Part shown: in pieces, positions 5,417-34,217 of the stretch
How the letters are laid out: each line of letters begins with the position of its first letter
Numbering within the stretch: position 1 is the first letter of the stretch
Source of the DNA: Erysipelotrichaceae bacterium
GTDB lineage: Bacteria; Bacillota_I; Bacilli_A; Erysipelotrichales; Erysipelotrichaceae
Length of the DNA: 64,000 nt
Assembly: GCA_017431405.1 (NCBI GenBank)
Contig: JAFRLB010000055.1
Span: forward strand, 1 to 64,000
Reading direction: 5' to 3'
Position numbers and translations under genes: made by a program
Notes under the pieces: model-generated
What the model was told of the DNA's origin: nothing
Database searches by the model: none
The model's input: the letters and a program-made list of their open reading frames with translations, nothing else

Positions 5417-6997
5417 TTAGTTTATTAATGAAAAGACAGTTCCATCAGTTTTGATCCTGACAGTCTGACCAGCTTCAATCAGTAACATTTCTGCTTCAAA
5501 TTCACTGTGGTAAATGTTGTTGTCAGCATCGACAATATATACCATTGTGTTGCCGTCAGTAGTGATCAATTCAATTCTCTTTATGACTATTTCCTTCTCT
5601 TCCATGTCACCGGTAATTACATTACCCTTGGTAAATGTTGAAAGAGCCTTATCAAGAGAATCATCAACTACCATGTGAGAATACTGAGCAGCGTCAACAA
5701 TAGCGTACATCTTAACCAAGCCCAGATTATCCTTTAAAACCATTACATAGGCTGGTGTGCCGTTAATGTTAATGAGGCTTGGGAATGAAGCACGGTAACC
5801 TTTTTCCTGAACTTCACCTTCAGCAGCTCTCATTACGCTGTCTTCATCAGTTGATTCAAAGTAAGATACCTTTATTTCACCGGTACGTTCATTAGCCATT
5901 AAGTAACCAATGTTACTTTCATCATTTGTTACAGCGGTAACACCTGTATAAACCAATACGTCATTGTTTTCAACGATATAACCGAAGTCGTTTGTTCTGT
6001 ATGATTCGCCATCACTGTCATAAAGTGTTGTGGTTGTGGATTCAATTAAGCCCTTCTGACCAAACAGACTGTTCCAGAAACCGTTGATCAGCTTGCCATA
6101 GATGTCAAAGTACTTGGCAATGTAATTACCGTTATAGACAATGTCTACCCATTGCGGTAAATCATTAACACCATATCTGTTTGTTTCACCGCTTACCGGA
6201 TCTACAACAATTGCCCCGGTTATCTTCTTACCACCAAATAAACCAATGGTATAGTCATATGTTGAAGCTACATAGTATGGTTTCCCACTTTCATCTATTT
6301 CAAAATGAATGTCATCATAGAATACTGTTGGATACTTAAAATAAATATGTCTGGCCAGGTCTTCAGACAGGAAGGCACTTGGCACATACTTCATGCCCTC
6401 ACTGGTTTCAACATATTCGGCCGTCAGTTTATTAGGCTCTACCATTACATAGCCTGGTACGCCATTCTTTCTGTTGGCGTTCCATTTCCAGAAGCCGGCA
6501 TACTTTAATGGAGAAACCTTTACTGGAGCATCCTTGTAAGCGATTGTCATGTAGTCTTCAGAAACTTCAAACTGGCTGACGATTTCATTCAAGGCACCGA
6601 TCTTACGGTTACCCAATACCTTGCTGCTTTCAGTATCCATTAATGGAATCTTATTTAACTTATCAACACCGGGTAATTCAACGTGTTCTACAGTTTCAAT
6701 GTTCAGTATCTTTGAATAGGCCTTAGCATTGATCATCTGTGAAGATACCAAAGCCCCAATCAGAACTGCCAATACTAATGCAATATTGATAACAGCCGTT
6801 GCTTTTAATGTTTTCTTACCGTTTGGCTTATTATAAGCATAGCCATAAACTAATAAGCTTACCGCAAGGACATCAAGCAGAATGATAAACCATAAACCGA
6901 TGTTATGAATGCTCAGGGTTGGTAATGTTACATACACAATCAGAGCGTTTAAAATCAATAATAATATAAGACATATAATTAACCATTTTTTCTTCAT
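5417..6997 (-). CDS. Membrane-anchored protein of unknown function, 526 aa
   Basis: I do not recognise the family. Three hydrophobic segments occupy about residues 5-26, 36-55 and 67-87, followed by a soluble domain of about 440 residues that probably faces outward. It contains conserved-looking stretches such as VVDPVSGE and LPQWVDIV. The start is ATG 6997, seven bases behind GGAGGTG; a GTG three codons upstream overlaps that ribosome site and is unlikely. It sits 14 bases downstream of the YxjI-like gene and ends at a strong terminator, so the two form an operon, apparently under the riboswitch-like leader at 7586-7714. A role in envelope or metal homeostasis is only a guess. Confidence 0.85.
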   Translation of the reverse strand: MKKKWLIICLILLLILNALIVYVTLPTLSIHNIGLWFIILLDVLAVSLLVYGYAYNKPNGKKTLKATAVINIALVLAVLIGALVSSQMINAKAYSKILNIETVEHVELPGVDKLNKIPLMDTESSKVLGNRKIGALNEIVSQFEVSEDYMTIAYKDAPVKVSPLKYAGFWKWNANRKNGVPGYVMVEPNKLTAEYVETSEGMKYVPSAFLSEDLARHIYFKYPTVFYDDIHFEIDESGKPYYVASTYDYTIGLFGGKKITGAIVVDPVSGETNRYGVNDLPQWVDIVYNGNYIAKYFDIYGKLINGFWNSLFGQKGLIESTTTTLYDSDGESYRTNDFGYIVENNDVLVYTGVTAVTNDESNIGYLMANERTGEIKVSYFESTDEDSVMRAAEGEVQEKGYRASFPSLININGTPAYVMVLKDNLGLVKMYAIVDAAQYSHMVVDDSLDKALSTFTKGNVITGDMEEKEIVIKRIELITTDGNTMVYIVDADNNIYHSEFEAEMLLIEAGQTVRIKTDGTVFSLIN

Positions 6998-7011
6998 GTG
7001 AAACACCTCCG

Positions 7012-7518
7012 TTAATGATTACTACTTGCACTTGCAGCTGCTGCTGAAGAATCAGAATCCTTATCATACTGGTTAATGGCCAGCATAAGCAAAATTATGA
7101 GCTGCTCGTGATCTTCATCGTAAATGTTAATGTAATACCTCTTGGTTAACCTGAACAGTTCCTGATTAATTTCGGCGACAAGATCATCATTTTCATCATA
7201 GATCTCATAGTCAAGAGCGAAGATGTCACCCTTGATGGTCCAGCCTAATTTATCAAGACTAAGTTCATGATGAAAGAAAGTAAACTGCTGGTTGAGAGAA
7301 TCAACGAATTCATCCCCCAGATAAATGTCATACTGTCTGAGAAACAGGGTAAAGTTCTTACAGACCTTACCGACATATTCCCCATAATGTCTCAATTTTA
7401 TTTCCGGTAATATCAGCGTCTTGTTTTCATAGGTATACACCGGAACATCGTTAGAGTCGTACAATTGGCCATCTGCATAGAACAGATGGAAGTTTTCTTT
7501 AAAATAATACTTAATCAT
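7012..7518 (-). CDS. LURP-one-related / YxjI-like protein
   Basis: 168-residue protein that looks like the LURP-one-related (YxjI, tubby/scramblase-like fold) family: an N-terminal KYYFKENF-type strand, a GWTIKGDIFALDYEIYD segment around residues 90-110, and a YYINIYDEDHEQLIILLMLAI segment near the end. The C-terminus is a short Ser/Ala-rich tail. Biochemical function is not established for bacterial members. It is the first gene after the riboswitch-like leader and has an AGGAGG ribosome site. The assignment rests on motif pattern only. Confidence 0.65.
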   Translation of the reverse strand: MIKYYFKENFHLFYADGQLYDSNDVPVYTYENKTLILPEIKLRHYGEYVGKVCKNFTLFLRQYDIYLGDEFVDSLNQQFTFFHHELSLDKLGWTIKGDIFALDYEIYDENDDLVAEINQELFRLTKRYYINIYDEDHEQLIILLMLAINQYDKDSDSSAAAASASSNH

Positions 7519-7585
7519 AATAGCCTCCTTTACTAATCAACGCTGGCCAACAGGTGACCGAAACATGCTTTGCCGTAAATGTGGA

Positions 7586-7714
7586 GATTATATAAATAAA
7601 GACCCATATACAGCCTTGCATATGAGTCTCACAGTCTATAGTTTGCCGGGTTGCCCGATTGACGACATAACTGCACTTTCGTGCCTGTTACTCCCTCAGT
7701 AAGCATATATTATC
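7586..7714 (-). ncRNA. Probable yybP-ykoY (Mn2+-type) riboswitch leader
   Basis: On the minus strand, in order: GGGAGTAAC (7695-7687), a GAAA-capped hairpin (about 7685-7673), CGTCAAT (7664-758), a CGGG/CCCG hairpin running into CCGGC, CTGTGAGAC (7634-7626), and a stem whose 3' side ends GGGTCTTT (7605-7598). These match the yybP-ykoY layout of GGGAGUA, CGUCAAU, CCGGC and GAGAC/GUCUUU. The closing P1 helix is not clear, which lowers confidence. A possible promoter (TTTACA 7734-7729, 16-base spacer, TAATAT 7712-7707) lies just upstream. It precedes the YxjI-like gene. Confidence 0.5.
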
Positions 7715-7739
7715 ATATTCTACAAAATTGTAAATATAT

Positions 7740-8654: not shown

Positions 8655-8830
8655 AAAATCAAAGTAGAGGTAGCGATGCAGATGAGTAACATCAGGAGCG
8701 GGTACGCTGAGAATGATGCGAAAGGTAATCATCGCCGAGTGGAACTGATCGACGGGTCAATTCCATGGGGTTACAGGAAATACCTGTAACACTCCCACCG
8801 TACAACCTGGTGGAGGCGCTATAACATGTG
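8655..8830 (+). ncRNA. Lysine riboswitch (L box)
   Basis: Matches the lysine aptamer: AGAGGTAGCGA near the 5' end, AAAGGTAATCATCGCCGAG with the conserved internal loop, CATGGGG plus a long GGTTACAG/CTGTAAC stem, and TGGTGGAGGCGCTAT at the 3' end. It lies directly upstream of a polar amino-acid ABC transporter and is followed by a terminator, as expected of an OFF switch in Firmicutes. Confidence 0.9.
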
Positions 8831-8875
8831 AAATTTCTCTGTAATCATATGTTCTAGCATATGATTTTTATTTTT
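8823..8875 (+). terminator. Riboswitch-controlled terminator with overlapping antiterminator
   Basis: Terminator stem AATCATATG/CATATGATT (8843-8851, 8858-8866) is followed by a T-rich tract. CATATGTT (8846-8853), part of the left arm and loop, can instead pair with AACATGTG (8823-8830) at the edge of the aptamer. Lysine binding would lock the aptamer closing helix and free the terminator; without lysine the antiterminator can form. Confidence 0.8.
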
Positions 8876-8893
8876 ACACAAGGAGGAAATCAC

Positions 8894-9718
8894 ATGAAGA
8901 AAGTATTATGCATTTTTGCGGCAGCTTTACTGCTGCTGAGCGGCTGTGGCAGTAACACACCTGCCTCAGAAGAAACAGAGGATAACGTATTTACAGTAGG
9001 CATGGAAGTAAACTATGCCCCGTTCAACTATGAACTGGCCAGCCCAACAGACACCAGTGTTCAGATCTCAGGTGGCTACGCTGACGGTTATGACGTAATG
9101 ATCGCCAGGAACATTGCTGATCAGTTAGGTATGGAACTGGAAATTAAGAAGATTGCCTGGAACGGTTTAGGCCTGGCACTTGAAAGCGGCGAAATCGATG
9201 CCATCATTGCCGGCATGACCGCTAATGAAGAAAGAGAAGCAGGCATCGACTTTACAACACCTTACTATGATTCTCACGGCATGATCATCATTGTCAGAAA
9301 AGGTTCTGAAGTTGAATCATTCACTAACATTCAGCAGTTTGCCGGACATACCGTAGTAGGCCAGCTCAATACCTCATATGATGAAGTAATTGATCAGATC
9401 AACGGCGTAATTCACGCTACACCTAAGACAGCTTATCCTGAAATGATCGTTGCCTTACAGCAGGGTGAAGTAGATGGCATTACTGCTGAAATGGCTGTAG
9501 CTGTTGGCATTCTTGCCAGTAACAGTGATCTGACAGTGGTACATTTTGATGAGGGCAAGGGCTTCGATGTAGATACAACCGTATCAATCGGCTTAAGTGA
9601 AGGCAGCAGAGGAACTGACTTCTTCAACAAGGTACAGGCAGCTCTTGACAACATTTCTGAAGAAACCAGAGAAAACTACATGGTAGACAGTATCGCAAAG
9701 CAGCCGGCAGAAAACTAA
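8894..9718 (+). CDS. Amino-acid ABC transporter substrate-binding lipoprotein (lysine predicted)
   Basis: 274-residue family 3 periplasmic-binding-type protein. The signal peptide ends in the lipobox LLSGC, so it should be lipid-anchored outside the membrane. Typical features are VGMEVNYAPFNY near the start of the mature domain, GLALESGEIDAIIAGMTANEER, DFTTPYYDSHGMIIIV and the Q/E-rich GEVDGITAEM segment. The start is ATG 8894, behind AGGAGG; the upstream in-frame ATG lies in the terminator hairpin. One base separates it from the permease. Lysine specificity is inferred from the L box. Confidence 0.92.
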   Translation: MKKVLCIFAAALLLLSGCGSNTPASEETEDNVFTVGMEVNYAPFNYELASPTDTSVQISGGYADGYDVMIARNIADQLGMELEIKKIAWNGLGLALESGEIDAIIAGMTANEEREAGIDFTTPYYDSHGMIIIVRKGSEVESFTNIQQFAGHTVVGQLNTSYDEVIDQINGVIHATPKTAYPEMIVALQQGEVDGITAEMAVAVGILASNSDLTVVHFDEGKGFDVDTTVSIGLSEGSRGTDFFNKVQAALDNISEETRENYMVDSIAKQPAEN

Positions 9719-9719
9719 T

Positions 9720-10448
9720 ATGACGATTGATTTTACTATATTAGTCAGTGTATTTAAGCGTAACTGGCCATTATTTGAGCATGGCATAAAGATAACCTGC
9801 ATCTTCGCCGTCATTGGAACGGTATGCGGTTTACTGATTGGCATAATTACCGGCGCCATCAGAACAATGAAAACGGATGAAGATGACAGTATGCTTAAGA
9901 AGATTCTGGTCACTTTCGGAATCCTGTTTACCCGTTTCTACATCTGGGTTTTCAGAGGAACCCCGATGGTAGTACAGGCTACTTTCATTTATTACCTTTT
10001 AAGACCGGTTTTCCATTGGAATACCACAACAGCAAGTTTGATCATTATTTCGGTTAATACCGGAGCCTACATGGCTGAAATTGTCAGAGCAGGCATTCAA
10101 TCCGTAAATGAAGGTCAGCTTGAGGCCAGCAGAGCTCTTGGGATGTCCTATGGTCAGGCATTATTTCACATCATAATGCCGCAAGCCATAAAGAATACCT
10201 TTCCATCAATTGGAAACCAGTTGATCGTAAATATCAAGGACAGTTCAATGTTAAATGTTCTGTCCGTTACGGAATTATTCTTCCAGACTTACAGCATTGC
10301 CGGAAGTAACTTCCGTTACATTGAGACATATTTCATCTCAGCCATTATTTATCTTCTTCTGACTTCAGTAGCTTCATTCATTCTCAACAGAATGGAAAAG
10401 CGCATGGATATTGAAAACAACGCTAAAATCATGGAGTACGCTAGCTGA
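9720..10448 (+). CDS. Amino-acid ABC transporter permease (HisM/GlnP type)
   Basis: 242-residue inner-membrane permease. The coupling motif region [25 protein letters not shown] is present at about residues 138-160, with several membrane helices and the [10 protein letters not shown] entry motif at about 80-89. It pairs with the upstream binding protein and the downstream ATPase; the stop codon overlaps the ATPase start (TGATG), so translation is coupled. As a single permease gene it would work as a homodimer. Predicted substrate is lysine, from the riboswitch. Confidence 0.92.
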
Positions 10449-11176
10449 TGAACATACTTGAAGTAAGAAACCTAAGCAAGAGCTTTGATACTCAGGATGT
10501 CTTAAAGGGCATCAATTTCGAACTGAGTCAGAATGAAGTAATAACCATCATTGGTTCATCGGGCTGTGGAAAATCAACAACCCTCAGATGCATTAACCTT
10601 CTGGAAAGACCATATGATGGCCAGATCCTGTTCCATGGTACGGACATTACCGATAAGAGTGTTAACCGCAATGAATACCGTTCAAAGGTTGGCATGGTAT
10701 TTCAGAACTTCAATTTATTTGATAACCTGACAGTTCTGGAAAACTGTACAATTGCTCAGAGAACCGTATTAAGAAAGAACCGTCAGGATGCTGAAGAAAC
10801 AGCCAGACTGTATCTGAAAAAGGTTGGCATGGAGAATTATATTAATCATCCGGTAACCAAACTCTCAGGCGGCCAGAAGCAGCGTGTAGCCATTGCCAGA
10901 ACATTATGCATGAATCCTGAAATAGTTCTGTTTGATGAACCTACCAGTGCCCTTGACCCGGAAATGGTTGGTGAAGTTCTGGAAGTCATCAGATCCTTAG
11001 CCAAAGAAGGAGTAACAATGATCATCGTTACTCATGAAATGGCCTTTGCTAAGGAAGTAAGTGACAGAGTAATATTCATGGATGAAGGTTTGATTGTTGA
11101 AGCAGGAAGCCCGGAAGAAATATTCAATAACCCAAAAGAAGAAAGAACAAAACAGTTTTTAAGAAGATTTGTTTAG
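10448..11176 (+). CDS. Amino-acid ABC transporter ATP-binding protein (GlnQ type)
   Basis: 242 residues with Walker [10 protein letters not shown] (about 37-45), the Q-loop VFQNFNLF, signature [13 protein letters not shown] (about 139-151), Walker [14 protein letters not shown] and the switch His in IIVTHEM. It energises the importer encoded upstream. The operon ends at a strong terminator right after the stop codon. Confidence 0.94.
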
Positions 11177-13683: not shown

Positions 13684-14529
13684 TCACCTGTTTCTTATAA
13701 TACTTATGACATAGACTGCCACAAAGGCAACCAGGTCTGCCGCAACGATCGTTGAGCCTACCGGTGTACCGTATAATATCGCAATTAATAATCCAATTGC
13801 GGCACATAATACTGATATTACTGCTGATGAGATGGTAACCATCTTAAAGCTCTTGAACAGCTGCATTGATGTAACTGCCGGGAAGATAACCAGAGCAGAT
13901 ATCAGTAATGAACCGACAAGGTTCATCGCTAATACTATTATAACAGCTATTACCGTAGCTAAGCCAAGATTATATAACTCGGTATTCATGCCGGTTGACT
14001 TGGCAAAAGTCTCATCAAAAGTTATCGCAAAGATGCGGTTATACATTAATACGAATATGACTACTACCAGTAATGACAGTATGACACATAGCCATACTTC
14101 TCCCTTGGTAAGAGTTAAAATTGAAGTTGAGCCAAATAAGGTCGTACATACATCGGCTGAAATGTTGGCTGAAACAGAGGTTACATTTAACAGAAGATAA
14201 CCCAATGCCAGTGAACCAACCGATATCATGGCTATTTTAGCATCCCCGTTTATCTTACTGCCTTGTCCCTGCTTTAATAATAAAATTGCTGAAATGATGG
14301 TGACAGGTAAGATGATGATCATCTTTTCTTTTATGAGGTTTAATACCATGGCAACACACATGCCGCCAAAAGCCACATGTGATAAGCCATCACCGATATA
14401 TGAGAATCTCTTTAAAACCAGTGTTACACCTAACAGGGAAGAACATAAGGCAATCAATATGCCGACAATGAAGGCATACTGAACAAATGGGTACTTAAAG
14501 TACATGGCTAAAGTAGTAAAGATATTCAT
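13684..14529 (-). CDS. Zinc/manganese-type ABC transporter permease (ZnuB/AdcB family)
   Basis: 281 residues and about eight membrane segments. The N-terminal QYAFIVGILIALCSSLLGVTLVLKR-type segment and SYIGDGLSHVAFGG (about residues 44-57) are hallmarks of the ABC-3 metal permease family. Its start shares one base with the ATPase stop. With the His-rich binding protein and the Fur-family regulator, this points to zinc uptake. Confidence 0.9.
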   Translation of the reverse strand: MNIFTTLAMYFKYPFVQYAFIVGILIALCSSLLGVTLVLKRFSYIGDGLSHVAFGGMCVAMVLNLIKEKMIIILPVTIISAILLLKQGQGSKINGDAKIAMISVGSLALGYLLLNVTSVSANISADVCTTLFGSTSILTLTKGEVWLCVILSLLVVVIFVLMYNRIFAITFDETFAKSTGMNTELYNLGLATVIAVIIVLAMNLVGSLLISALVIFPAVTSMQLFKSFKMVTISSAVISVLCAAIGLLIAILYGTPVGSTIVAADLVAFVAVYVISIIRNR

Positions 14530-15212
14530 TATAAATTACCACCTTTCCATTCCTTATATTCGCTTACTGTTCCATAGAAGTTCTCATGGTCATTCAACAT
14601 TAAGACATGTTTTGACTCAGTCAAGGCTGTTTCTATGTCATGAGAAATCATGACAATGGCTGTTCCTTCATGGTTCAGCTTGCGGATGATGCTGTACATT
14701 TCCTTGGTTGTTTCACGGTCCAAAGAAGCAGATGGTTCATCAAGAACGATTAGTTTCTTGGTAGCACAAAGACAGCGGGCAAAAAGAACACGCTGCTGCT
14801 GGCCACCTGATAATTCTCTGTAACTCTTATCAGCCAGTTCATAAATGTTCATTCTCTTCATGCTCTCTTCAGCCAGCTTTTTATGCTCAGCCTTATAGAA
14901 GAACCCTTTCCCTAAGGAACCCTGACAACCTGAGAGTACGATTTCCCTTACTGTTGCCGGAAAGTCTTTCTGTACAAGGGTCTGTTGAGCCAGGTAACCT
15001 GTTTCATGCGGTTTTAAACCATCACCAAATTCTATGGTTCCACTGTAAGGTTTCTTTAACCCTAACAGAACTTTTATTAAGGTTGATTTACCAACACCGT
15101 TTTCACCTATGACACAAAGATAGTCTCCTTCATCAACCTTAAAGGAGAGCTTCTTTATTATCTCAACATTGTCATAACCGAAAGACAGTTCTTTCACATC
15201 AATAAGTGCCAT
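14529..15212 (-). CDS. Zinc ABC transporter ATP-binding protein (ZnuC/AdcC family)
   Basis: 227 residues: Walker A GENGVGKST (about 36-44), signature LSGGQQQRVLFAR (about 135-147), Walker B LIVLDEPSASLD and MISHD. It powers import by the ABC-3 permease. One-base overlaps with the genes on both sides indicate tight translational coupling. Confidence 0.92.
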   Translation of the reverse strand: MALIDVKELSFGYDNVEIIKKLSFKVDEGDYLCVIGENGVGKSTLIKVLLGLKKPYSGTIEFGDGLKPHETGYLAQQTLVQKDFPATVREIVLSGCQGSLGKGFFYKAEHKKLAEESMKRMNIYELADKSYRELSGGQQQRVLFARCLCATKKLIVLDEPSASLDRETTKEMYSIIRKLNHEGTAIVMISHDIETALTESKHVLMLNDHENFYGTVSEYKEWKGGNL

Positions 15213-16153
15213 TAATTCAATACCTTCTTCAATACTTCCAGATTACTGCTCATTACATCGAGATAACTCCTGTTATCTGCTAGTGTTGTTGACTGTAATG
15301 AGTCAAGCGATTCAATTGTCTGATTCTTGTTTACAGTACTGTTAATTACCGCATTGGCAATCTTTTCCTCACTGTTCTCCAGAATCATTACATACTTAAG
15401 ATTTAATTCATCAGTCTTCTCGGCCAGGAACTTTATGGTTTCAAAGCTGGCTTCAGACTCAGCTGAGCAACCTTTAAAGGCTGCGTAGTAGTCAATACCA
15501 TAGTCGTCAACAAGATATCTGAACGGGAATCGGTCCGCAAATAACAGTACCTTCTTACTGCTGCTTGAAACAGCTTTTTCATATTCAGCATCAAGCTTGT
15601 CCAATTCATTAATATATCTGTCATAGTTAGCCTGATACTTATCCTTATTATCAGGATCTAACTTTACCAGTTCATTAAGAATATTCTCACATGAAGCTTT
15701 TGCGTTTTTCAAAGACAGCCAGATGTGTTCATCAAACTCTCCTTCTTCATGTTCGTGCTCGTGCTCATCTTCCTGCATGCCTTCCTTTTCTTCTTCCTGT
15801 TTCAGAAGGTCTTCAATGCTTTCCATGACACTGAAGGAATTAAGCTTCTTATTCTCCTTTAATATGTCTTCGATCCATTCATCGGACTCGCCACCATTAT
15901 ATATAAACAGATCACTGTCAGTTGTCTTAATGATATCAGAAGCAGAAGCCTGGTAGTTATGCAGATCTACACCCTTATTCATTAACAGAGTCAGCTCAAT
16001 GCCTTCGCTGTCACCAACAATTTCTCTTACCCAGTCGTATAATGGGAAGATGGTTACCACAACTGATTTCTTGTCGTTTTTAGCTGGTTCCTGAGAAGTG
16101 CAGCCACTTAGTATTAACATTAACGCCGTAAGCAGGCACACTATTCTTTTCAT
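15212..16153 (-). CDS. Zinc-binding ABC transporter lipoprotein (ZnuA/AdcA family)
   Basis: 313 residues from ATG 16153 (ribosome site AAGGAG). Lipobox LILSGC. A mature cluster A-I metal-binding protein: DLHNY near residue 82, the acidic His-rich loop with DEHEHEHEEGE (about 137-147) followed by DEHIW, then FPFRYLVDDYGIDYYAAF. The His-rich loop is typical of zinc rather than manganese binders. Its start overlaps the regulator stop by four bases (ATGA), and its own stop overlaps the ATPase start. Confidence 0.92.
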   Translation of the reverse strand: MKRIVCLLTALMLILSGCTSQEPAKNDKKSVVVTIFPLYDWVREIVGDSEGIELTLLMNKGVDLHNYQASASDIIKTTDSDLFIYNGGESDEWIEDILKENKKLNSFSVMESIEDLLKQEEEKEGMQEDEHEHEHEEGEFDEHIWLSLKNAKASCENILNELVKLDPDNKDKYQANYDRYINELDKLDAEYEKAVSSSSKKVLLFADRFPFRYLVDDYGIDYYAAFKGCSAESEASFETIKFLAEKTDELNLKYVMILENSEEKIANAVINSTVNKNQTIESLDSLQSTTLADNRSYLDVMSSNLEVLKKVLN

Positions 16154-16569
16154 AAAGCATTCTCCTTTGCCATGCATTCTTCACAGATACCGTAAAAAAC
16201 AGTCATTTTCGGAACGATAGTGAAATGATGGTCATTGCTGATGTGATTTTCCAAACTGGTTATTTCATCACAATGCAAATGAATTAATTTACCGCATCTG
16301 ATGCACTTGCAATGATAACATTGACTGTGATCACAGTCAGCATACTCATAACATGCCGGAGTATTCTCATCAATAATTGACTTAACTACCGTACCTTCCT
16401 TAACCAATGACTCAAGATGACGATAAACCGTAGTTAACCCTATCTTTTCGTTATTTGCCTTTAAATGCTCATAGATATCCTTTACAGTAAGGTGTTCACC
16501 ATTGCTGTTCTTAAGATAATCCAATACTGTTTCTTTCTGTGCTGTTCTATATATCTTTTTACTGTTCAT
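16150..16569 (-). CDS. zur: Fur-family zinc uptake regulator (Zur)
   Basis: 139 residues: an N-terminal winged helix with GLTTVYRHLESLVKEG (about 50-65), then CYHCKCIRCGKLIHLHC and a C-terminal GICEEC, giving the two CxxC-type pairs of the structural zinc site in Fur/Zur proteins. First gene of the zinc-uptake operon, hence Zur rather than Fur or PerR. A perfect 7-1-7 palindrome sits 5 bases upstream of the start codon, so autoregulation of the whole operon is expected. No Shine-Dalgarno sequence is visible; the operator occupies that space. Confidence 0.85.
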   Translation of the reverse strand: MNSKKIYRTAQKETVLDYLKNSNGEHLTVKDIYEHLKANNEKIGLTTVYRHLESLVKEGTVVKSIIDENTPACYEYADCDHSQCYHCKCIRCGKLIHLHCDEITSLENHISNDHHFTIVPKMTVFYGICEECMAKENAL

Positions 16570-31635: not shown

Positions 31636-33150
31636 TTAAACGTATTTTTCCAGTGTCTTTCTGACTGCTCCCTTTTCCCTTAACATTTCATTTAAGTAAG
31701 CAGTTATCTTATCAGCCAGACCCTGTTCTTCAAGATCAACACCGAAGATTCTTTCGTTCTTCAGAATGCTCATGATATCTTTCTTTTCAACCGTAGCACC
31801 TAATTCATAATTCATGATCGGTGTTAACTCACCAAGCATTGGATCACTTGGTAACTCAAATTTTTCACCCAGATCATTAATGCCTGTCAGATATCTTAAC
31901 CAGCCGGCAAATACCAGCGGGATATATGTCAGTTCATTAAGATCCTTACCCTTGGCAACATAGGCCTTAAGTGTTTCACCGAATCTTACCGGTAACTTCT
32001 GAGAAGTATCCATGGCAATACGCTGTGGTGCATCAGGCATGAATGGGTTTGTCAGTCTGACATTGATTACTGTATCCAGGAATTCTCTTGGCTTGATGAT
32101 GCCCGGGTCAGTTACGACAGGTAATCCTTCATCATAGCCAATATGTCTGGCTAACTTATCCAATACTTCATCATTCATTTCTTCATAGATCAGATGATGG
32201 TCTAATAAGCAGCCATAAACAGCTAAGGCTGTATGTACCGGATTCAGACAGGTACATACCTTCATCTTTTCAACCTTATCAACCGTATCACGGTCTGTAA
32301 AGATGATTCCTTCCTTATCCCAGGCTGGCTTGCCATTACGGAAGTCATCCTCAATGATCAGATACTGACTTTCCTCAGCGTTAACGAAACAGTTCATGTA
32401 GTAAGAAGTATCATGCAGATCTTCCAAACCGTCGTTTCTTAACATTTCGGCAACCTTGCCATCCGGTCTAGGAGTGATCTTATCGATCATGGAAATTGGG
32501 AAGCTTACTTCATTATTCAGATATTCAATGAAGCCATTGTCATTCCAACTTTCCGCAAACTTCATGATGCCACTCTTTAGTACATCGCCATTATGTGAAC
32601 AGTTATCATGACTGCTTAAGGTTAATGGGTAAGCACCGTTTTCATAACGGTACCATAACAGTGAAGCAACGACCCCAATGTAGGAATCAGTTTCAAATGG
32701 CTTCTCGCAGGTTTCAGCTACTCTGTAGCCTTTTTCAGTAATGGTATAGCTTACAACCTGTAAGCTCTTCTTAGCGAAGATCTCCTTTAATCTTTCGATT
32801 TCATCAATTCTTACACTTTCAGCGATTGAACCGACAACTCTCTTATTAACATTACCATCACTCTTCAAAGTAACCGCAACGTACAAGTTATCATAGGCTC
32901 TGTAATATGTATCAATGTCACTGCCCTTACGGCCGCTGACAACGATCAGGCCCTTATCAATGATTCCTTTATCTAATAATTTATCGCAATAAACAGCTTC
33001 AAAGGCTCTGAATAAGTTTCCAGAACCAAAGTGAACCCAGACTGGCTCTTCTGTTGTTTCAGCTATCATCTTATTTCTGTCATAGGAATATACTTCATAA
33101 CCCTTATCGAGCCAACTCTGTTTTTCCTGTTGAACATTTATGAGTTTCAT
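31636..33150 (-). CDS. uxuB: Mannonate/fructuronate oxidoreductase (UxuB-like)
   Basis: 504 residues of the polyol-specific long-chain dehydrogenase family: WVHFGSGNLFRAFEAVYCD near the start, YTITEKGYR, SHDNCSHNGDVLK, MIDKITPRPD and the C-terminal domain catalytic region. It interconverts D-fructuronate and D-mannonate with NAD(H). Directly adjoins uxuA (one-base overlap), which makes uronate catabolism the best reading, although tagaturonate reductase is possible by homology. Confidence 0.88.
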   Translation of the reverse strand: MKLINVQQEKQSWLDKGYEVYSYDRNKMIAETTEEPVWVHFGSGNLFRAFEAVYCDKLLDKGIIDKGLIVVSGRKGSDIDTYYRAYDNLYVAVTLKSDGNVNKRVVGSIAESVRIDEIERLKEIFAKKSLQVVSYTITEKGYRVAETCEKPFETDSYIGVVASLLWYRYENGAYPLTLSSHDNCSHNGDVLKSGIMKFAESWNDNGFIEYLNNEVSFPISMIDKITPRPDGKVAEMLRNDGLEDLHDTSYYMNCFVNAEESQYLIIEDDFRNGKPAWDKEGIIFTDRDTVDKVEKMKVCTCLNPVHTALAVYGCLLDHHLIYEEMNDEVLDKLARHIGYDEGLPVVTDPGIIKPREFLDTVINVRLTNPFMPDAPQRIAMDTSQKLPVRFGETLKAYVAKGKDLNELTYIPLVFAGWLRYLTGINDLGEKFELPSDPMLGELTPIMNYELGATVEKKDIMSILKNERIFGVDLEEQGLADKITAYLNEMLREKGAVRKTLEKYV

Positions 33151-34217
33151 TATCTTTCTCCCTTATCAATGGCTTCCCATAAGCCACAGATATATGCAGC
33201 TCCTAATGCTCTGTCATATAATCCATATCCAGGCATTGCCACCTCATCCCATATCATTCTGCCATGGTCTGGTCTGATAGGTCCTGAAAAGCCTATGTCA
33301 TGTAATGCTTTCACTATCTCATACATGTCAAAGCTGCCATCTGAAGATAAATGAGCCGCTTCCTCAAAGTCATCTCTGCTGTTGAACTTCAGGTTTCTGA
33401 CATGAGCAAAGTGGATCCTTCCCTTCAATGACCTTATCATTGCCGGTAAGTCATTATCCAGGTTTGTTCCATAAGAACCTGAACAGAATGTAACACCATT
33501 ATGTTCATCATCTACCATCTTCATCATCCTGTGGATGTTTTCCATGTTGGTGATTATTCTCGGTAAGCCAAATACACTCCAGGCCGGATCATCTGGATGG
33601 ATAGCCATCTTGATGTCATACTTGTTACATACAGGCATTATCTTCTCTAAGAAGTACTTAAGATTATCAAACAGCTTGTCTTCATCTACATCACTGTACA
33701 TCTCAAACAGTTCCTTTACATGAGCCATTCTCTCTGGCTCCCAGCCAGGCATGACTGTTCCGTTCATATCTGAGGAGATCGATTCAAACATCTTCTCAGG
33801 TACTAATTCATCTACGGCCTTCTGAGTATAAGCCAGTACTGTTGAACCATCTGCTCTTCTTCTGGCCAGTTCTGTTCTGGTCCAGTCGAATACCGGCATG
33901 AAGTTATAACATACCAGATGGATGTCTTCCTTGCCTAAGTTCTCTAATGTTTCAATATAGTTCTTTATGTAAAGATCTCTGTTGCCCTTACCGGTCTTGA
34001 TGTCATCGTGGATGTTTACTGATTCTATGCCTGAGATATGAAGTCCTGCTTCTTCTACTTCATTCTTAAGAGCTCTTATTTCTTCTCTTGTCCATACTTC
34101 ACCAGGCTGCTTATCATACAGGGTCGTTATTACACCTGTCACATAGGCTGTCTGTCTTATCTGCTTTAATGTTACGGTATCAAACTTACTGCCGTACCAG
34201 CGCATTGTCATTTCCAT
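33150..34217 (-). CDS. uxuA: Mannonate dehydratase
   Basis: 355 residues. Motifs of UxuA include VTGVITTLYDKQPGEVW, LVCYNFMPVFDWTRT, MAIHPDDPAWSVFGLPRI, FCSGSYG, HFAHVRN and RPDHGRMIW, containing the Cys/His/Asp metal ligands. It dehydrates D-mannonate to 2-keto-3-deoxygluconate. uxaC, kdgK and kdgA are not in the window and would have to be elsewhere. Confidence 0.95.
   Translation of the reverse strand: MEMTMRWYGSKFDTVTLKQIRQTAYVTGVITTLYDKQPGEVWTREEIRALKNEVEEAGLHISGIESVNIHDDIKTGKGNRDLYIKNYIETLENLGKEDIHLVCYNFMPVFDWTRTELARRRADGSTVLAYTQKAVDELVPEKMFESISSDMNGTVMPGWEPERMAHVKELFEMYSDVDEDKLFDNLKYFLEKIMPVCNKYDIKMAIHPDDPAWSVFGLPRIITNMENIHRMMKMVDDEHNGVTFCSGSYGTNLDNDLPAMIRSLKGRIHFAHVRNLKFNSRDDFEEAAHLSSDGSFDMYEIVKALHDIGFSGPIRPDHGRMIWDEVAMPGYGLYDRALGAAYICGLWEAIDKGER

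Follow-up and report, generated by a model that had tools for sequence, protein, structure and literature searches.

The window analysed here is a 64,000-nucleotide stretch of DNA from an Erysipelotrichaceae bacterium (assembly GCA_017431405.1, contig JAFRLB010000055.1, positions 1 to 64,000 of the forward strand). On its minus strand lie two operon genes preceded by a structured leader (Table 1). Both genes are as the initial annotation had described them, the first encoding a LURP-one-related (LOR), YxjI-like protein and the second a membrane protein. Inspection of the leader also recovered the ordered yybP-ykoY signature that the annotation had reported (GGGAGUA, GUCGUCA, CCGGC and GAGAC, minus strand, 7621-7699). 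Elsewhere in the window, we noted a lysine riboswitch (RF00168, 79.4 bits) at 8657-8829 (+), ahead of an apparent amino-acid ABC transporter operon (8861-11176). The minus-strand genes at 13684-16177, some 6 kb away from the switch, appear to encode a His-rich binding lipoprotein, an ATPase and a permease, and presumably form a metal-uptake operon of the ZnuABC/AdcABC type.

Table 1. Features of the leader and of the operon that it precedes, in window coordinates.
Feature	Position	Strand	Details
Promoter-like site	7707..7734	-	TTTACA - 16 nt - TAATAT; TG before the second hexamer (extended -10)
Aptamer, yybP-ykoY (Mn2+ riboswitch) class, three-way-junction form	7621..7699	-	Model R1 and covariation
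Helix P1.1	7695-7698/7623-7626	-	UGAG/CUCA; four-pair switch helix
L1 loop	7689..7694 (5' strand); 7627-7630 (3' strand)	-	GGAGUA; GAGA
Helix P1.2	7685-7688/7631-7634	-	
Helix P2	7681-7684/7673-7676	-	
Helix P3	7664-7672/7640-7647	-	
L3 loop	7657..7663	-	GUCAAUC
Helix P3.1	7655-7656/7649-7650	-	With GCAA loop
Intrinsic terminator hairpin	7599..7630	-	14 bp, T-rich tail; scan and fold
168-aa LURP-one-related/tubby-C-like (YxjI-like) protein	7012..7518	-	First operon gene
529-aa membrane protein	5417..7006	-	Second operon gene; three N-terminal helices, large beta-rich part

The promoter-like site matches the consensus at 9 of 12 positions; the consensus scan found two such sites where 1.0 was expected, which is weak on its own. 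A transcript from this site would start just upstream of the aptamer. At the other end of the leader, a single terminator-like hairpin (7630-7599) was found, versus 0.1 ± 0.4 in shuffled sequences. By both scan and fold, the 5' arm of this terminator includes the P1.1 3' strand, and the two hairpins are mutually exclusive. The folding energy of the region 7560-7715 was below that of all 200 shuffles (200/200, z = -3.78). Folded on its own, the aptamer has a minimum-energy structure other than that of the model (-20.9 vs -15.3 kcal/mol), hence the structure given in Table 1 rests on covariation.

The initial annotation had looked to a match with the Rfam yybP-ykoY model (RF00080) above its gathering cut-off at 7586-7714. 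None was found, either at the gathering score in a scan of the window or up to an E value of 10 in a 401-base scan of the leader. In a search of the window's own genome there was nothing at the leader, the best weak match (15.7 bits) being another element before a P-type ATPase gene. The missing match is not a refutation, because control leaders also score below the cut-off of 45: that of E. coli mntP (41.6), Bacillus velezensis (39.0), B. atrophaeus (39.3) and Lactococcus taiwanensis (37.6), the last a relative of the crystallised aptamer. RF00080 was dropped as arbiter after these controls fell below its cut-off. The extent of this blind spot of the standard Mn2+-riboswitch model can be seen from its matches above cut-off (0 of 120 class genomes; 2 of 14 named control genomes), set beside those of a second model, R2, which is partly trained on the window's lineage and matched elements in 80 of 392 phylum-sample genomes.

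Of 60 relatives searched at the DNA level, 12 carried the leader. We laid out the structure by hand on six sequences of the window's genus and built from them a covariance model (R1), which gave matches in 43 of 145 family-sample and 26 of 247 class-sample genomes. The window aptamer, itself one of the six training sequences, scored 92.6 bits. Independent loci were also matched, among them one before a P-type ATPase gene (L001, E = 1.4 × 10–8) and one before an mntP gene (L016, E = 2.1 × 10–8), as were streptococcal elements before P-type ATPases (best, S. marimammalium L214, 57.3 bits, E = 3.1 × 10–12). Among 81 named loci, R1 reached an E value of 1 in 40; neither Lactococcus nor E. coli mntP belonged to these, and R2 matched both weakly (24.4 and 19.1 bits, respectively).

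The relatives were collected in an aligned set of 78 elements, 76 of them distinct, and in an enlarged set of 174 elements from 123 genomes and 68 genera. Across the 76 distinct elements all six helices covary, with 95.2% of cells paired and 22 of 24 pairs changed on both sides. The covariation score was 0.694, versus 0.236 in shuffles (0/500 as high) and at most 0.118 in slid versions, in an alignment whose fit to the model structure favours such a result. The P1 helix that had been called weak has four pairs, serves as the switch helix and covaries in the 76 distinct relatives. The letters of the metal site are conserved: GGAGUA of L1 in 76 of the 78 aligned elements, (G/A)AGA on its other strand in 78/78, and the CA of L3 that ends in the Mn-sensing adenosine in 77/78 (173/174 in the enlarged set, where the sole exception has no residues at that place). 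A terminator overlapping P1.1 was present in 50 of 78 relatives, as against a mean of 4.5 and a maximum of 8 in 30 shuffles.

The joint between P3 and P1.2 (J3/1) consists of 5 nt in the window (AUAGA, in place of P4) and of 5-6 nt in 77 of 78 relatives; P4 is therefore absent and the junction is three-way. Since the streptococcal elements also lack P4, we treat this helix as a variable, not a defining, part of the class. The missing helix explains the unusual spacing remarked on initially, and the hint of a variant class was well placed, the P4-less three-way-junction form being common to the streptococcal elements. An artefact of chance or composition was ruled out by the relatives found by DNA search and with R1, together with the covariation. 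Judged by its sequence, the leader belongs to the yybP-ykoY riboswitch class as a genuine member lacking P4. The class, orientation and target genes first proposed for it stand, given the covariation, the near-invariant adenosine and the relatives that R1 matched ahead of MntP, CaCA and P-type ATPase genes.

In a permissive scan, the sole RNA family near significance on the window leader was SSRC10 (RF02617), at 21.9 bits (E = 0.06), short of its gathering score of 56. Streptococcal elements were caught by SSRC10 and not by RF00080; those of this family found before P-type ATPases include L214 4695-4804, L200 6760-6870 and L165 3608-3712. In S. pyogenes, SSRC10 is flanked by a hypothetical gene and, downstream, by a putative calcium transporter, and it was detected on Northern blots with its own terminator (PMC3675131). 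S. pneumoniae mgtA has a Mn/Ca-sensing riboswitch of the yybP-ykoY family (PMC11434433). SSRC10, filed in Rfam as an sRNA, probably represents a yybP-ykoY-type riboswitch leader that has been terminated. The Rfam entry and the Northern-blot transcript could also be taken to mean that the conserved RNA serves mainly as a small transcript ending at its terminator, or as an attenuator bound by a protein, and not as a metal sensor. This is very improbable: in dozens of genera the elements are immediately followed by metal-transport genes, their metal-site letters are invariant and the terminator overlaps P1.1. Moreover, an ON switch without its ligand yields a terminated leader anyway.

The published mechanism in L. 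lactis is that Mn2+-stabilised P1.1 prevents the terminator from forming (PMC11087558, PMC9190785). The L3 letters are UCA41AU43UC in L. lactis and ACA48U49ACU52 in X. oryzae (PMC6754395); the window has UCAAUC, of which UCAAU are the same letters as UCA41AU43, and by this letter comparison A at 7660 is the equivalent of the Mn-sensing A41. By analogy, we infer both ligand and sign of regulation: the window riboswitch is most likely Mn2+-responsive and ON, and Mn2+/Ca2+ as its ligand is possible. Without metal, the GAGACUCA segment of the nascent RNA would become part of the terminator hairpin, ending transcription near 7598. Metal, most likely Mn2+, would dock L1 (GGAGUA/GAGA) onto L3 (GUCA...), and this docking would stabilise P1.1 and block the terminator, whereupon RNA polymerase could read into the LOR-type and 529-aa membrane-protein genes.

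Genes next to the relatives of the switch were assigned to classes by BLAST against seeds drawn from these same loci; the seeds were named by eye, and only the SPFH and PiT ones were also compared with Pfam. The names MntP, P-type ATPase, CaCA, NaPi, TerC and ArsB-like were given from the appearance of the sequences and are our assumption. Behind the 78 elements, the first gene that could be classified was MntP in 28, P-type ATPase in 23, SPFH in 9, NaPi in 5, PiT in 4, LOR and CaCA in 2 each, and the 529-aa family (MEM529) and ArsB-like in 1 each, with none in 3. Hence the remark that the genes behind the leader are not the usual exporters holds for the window copy but fails for its relatives, where the same RNA precedes MntP, P-type ATPases and CaCA exchangers. 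Further unusual targets are presumably CorC/CNNM-like genes (after elements of L323, L334 and L339) and a TrkH-like gene (after that of L371). Two more class elements were noted in the window genome, one U-type (see below) before PiT (L079 1981-2069, G000:C20) and one A-type before a P-type ATPase (L001 1537-1628, G000:C8). In another genome (G018:C44), two U-type elements (32333-32421 and 33537-33623; L364 and L356) lie 1.2 kb apart on one strand, each before a CaCA exchanger.

We noted that the gene class goes with one base of L3, two positions before the Mn-sensing adenosine, which is A or U; in the window it is U (7662), and the element is therefore U-type. In the first 78 elements, A was found at MntP in 28/28, and U at flotillin, phosphate-transporter, LOR-type and ArsB-like genes in 22/22. 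The out-of-sample elements (R2, phylum sample) gave A at MntP in 24/24 and U at flotillin and Na/Pi genes in 3/3. In the table of 174 elements, which omits a duplicate row (L356:1084, at the position of L364) and G157 (a near copy of G170), all 52 MntP elements (32 genera) have A. All 25 elements before SPFH (11), Na/Pi (6), PiT (4), LOR (2), 529-aa (1) and ArsB-like (1) genes have U. P-type ATPases (56: 32 A, 22 U, 2 other), CaCA exchangers (30: 16 A, 14 U) and unclassified genes (6 A, 4 U, 1 other) occur with both. Since the 174 elements are not independent, coexistence within genomes served as a control: an A-type element before MntP was accompanied by a U-type element before another gene in 9 genomes, and the reverse was seen in none. 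E. coli fits the split as well, with AACA at mntP and GUCA at alx, whose product we take to be a TerC protein. A set of named loci, U-type by construction, gave at least 120 matches listed: at least 67 before TerC (whose seeds include the E. coli alx protein), at least 20 before P-type ATPase, at least 4 before CaCA and at least 29 before unclassified genes, some of these 29 being clear chance matches before LysR genes. No MntP was found among the 91 classifiable loci of this set, among the matches listed.

The split offers a one-base prediction of which yybP-ykoY RNAs serve MntP, and it bears on the remark in a review that some yybP RNAs may have altered metal specificity (PMC7266159). It could be due to function or to descent, and the data do not separate the two. 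Tentatively, yybP-ykoY might comprise two functional subclasses told apart by this base, A-type elements guarding Mn export by MntP, and U-type elements, that of the window included, responding to a signal that is broader or of another kind (Mn2+ with Ca2+), and governing a membrane/phosphate programme of flotillin, LOR/tubby, PiT, Na/Pi and TerC genes; we regard this proposal as possible, with considerable doubt. A related alternative keeps the structural class and gives the U-type L3 subclass another range of ligands, either Mn2+ together with Ca2+ or chiefly Ca2+, with the operon answering calcium or general divalent stress. The perfect split, the lack of MntP among the classifiable U-pattern loci listed and the expectation of altered specificity (PMC7266159) are all consistent with it, as is the Mn/Ca2+-sensing mgtA riboswitch of S. 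pneumoniae (PMC11434433), the streptococcal elements here being U-type. However, L. lactis yoaB is U-type (UCA41) and yet described as an Mn2+-specific ON switch (PMC11087558, PMC6754395). In addition, P-type ATPases and TerC genes, among them E. coli alx, annotated as an Mn2+ exporter, also lie behind U-type elements, and the L3 letter could merely travel with gene lineages. We therefore consider another ligand range unlikely, and a switch that most likely answers to Mn2+ remains our reading of the window.

The 168-aa protein matched Pfam Tubby_C_like (E = 3.4 × 10–4) and LOR (E = 9.3 × 10–4), both under the cut-offs. Its AlphaFold model (pLDDT 80.6) has a barrel and a C-terminal helix, and the top Foldseek match in the PDB was 1zxu (At5g01750; E = 2.1 × 10–4, probability 1.00, TM 0.58), which we take to be a LURP-one-related protein; a tubby-like barrel fold is thus predicted for the window protein. 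The 529-aa protein (model pLDDT 86) matched no Pfam family above cut-off. We rejected any reading of its function from the fold, the Foldseek PDB matches (TM < 0.3) being meaningless. Homologues of it occur in 59 of 247 class genomes, and the window genome carries a paralogue.

In four congeners (G004, G005, G006 and G008), the order is riboswitch, flotillin, LOR, 529-aa protein; in another genus (G167), it is riboswitch, flotillin, LOR. The congener flotillin matched Band_7 (E = 1.9 × 10–20) and Flot (E = 3.8 × 10–9) of Pfam. In G001, the switch has an 85-aa ORF and the 529-aa gene immediately behind it. No SPFH/flotillin gene was found at the locus or in the genome of the window species (83% complete) or of G007 (95% complete). 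This absence, and the lack of the switch at other LOR loci (0/24), might suggest that the switch belonged to a lost flotillin gene and is a non-functional relict in the window species. We judge this very improbable: the leaders of the window genome and of G007 share 99% identity, and the window keeps promoter-like site, aptamer core, terminator and both genes, with core, terminator and genes kept in G007 as well.

The switch was likewise absent at 24/24 loci of 529-aa homologues and was present at 1 of 30 class flotillin loci. A general functional tie of the RNA to the LOR or 529-aa family thus found no support (0/24 and 0/24 loci), nor did one to flotillins in general, a link that still recurs in 5 genera of the 174-element set. 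Since LOR proteins, 529-aa homologues and flotillins mostly occur without the switch, its link to these proteins is lineage-specific. In B. subtilis, the flotillins FloT and FloA are listed among the proteins found with the TerC proteins MeeF and MeeY (PMC10550928). A literature search, confined largely to openly accessible papers, retrieved among the titles and passages covered no paper tying a yybP/Mn riboswitch to flotillin or to phosphate transporters.

Because the operon of close relatives starts with a flotillin-like SPFH gene, we infer a function for the proteins too: the operon may respond to an excess of divalent metal by organising the membrane, and the window species would have lost the flotillin gene from it. 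Collectively, our results make it very probable that a P4-less, transcription-ON metal riboswitch of the yybP-ykoY class controls, as part of such a response, the LOR-type and membrane-protein genes, which follow a flotillin gene in relatives. With them, flotillin, a LURP-one/tubby-fold protein, phosphate transporters and a membrane family outside Pfam would join a metal regulon.

Compared with known systems, the window element shares with the yybP-ykoY aptamers of RF00080 (L. lactis yoaB and X. oryzae yebN) the L1 pair GGAGUA/GAGA, the L3 letters GUCAAU with the invariant A41 equivalent, the GGC closing, a P1.1 switch helix that competes with a terminator, and relatives placed before metal-transport genes. 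Unlike the crystallised aptamers, it has neither P4 nor a four-way junction; it also scores below the RF00080 thresholds, and its targets are LOR and membrane-protein genes. The streptococcal leaders of mgtA-type ATPases (SSRC10, RF02617) have the same P4-less layout, short J3/1 and U-type L3 and are found by R1, whereas they precede a P-type ATPase, differ in loop details and are named as an sRNA in Rfam. Similarly, the 168-aa protein shares its predicted barrel and C-terminal helix with LURP-one-related and tubby-C-like proteins (YxjI, At5g01750); unlike these, it falls under the Pfam cut-offs, stands behind a metal riboswitch and has a flotillin beside it in relatives. By comparison with bacterial flotillins (Band_7 plus Flot), the first operon gene of the congeners has both domains, whereas none was found in the window genome.
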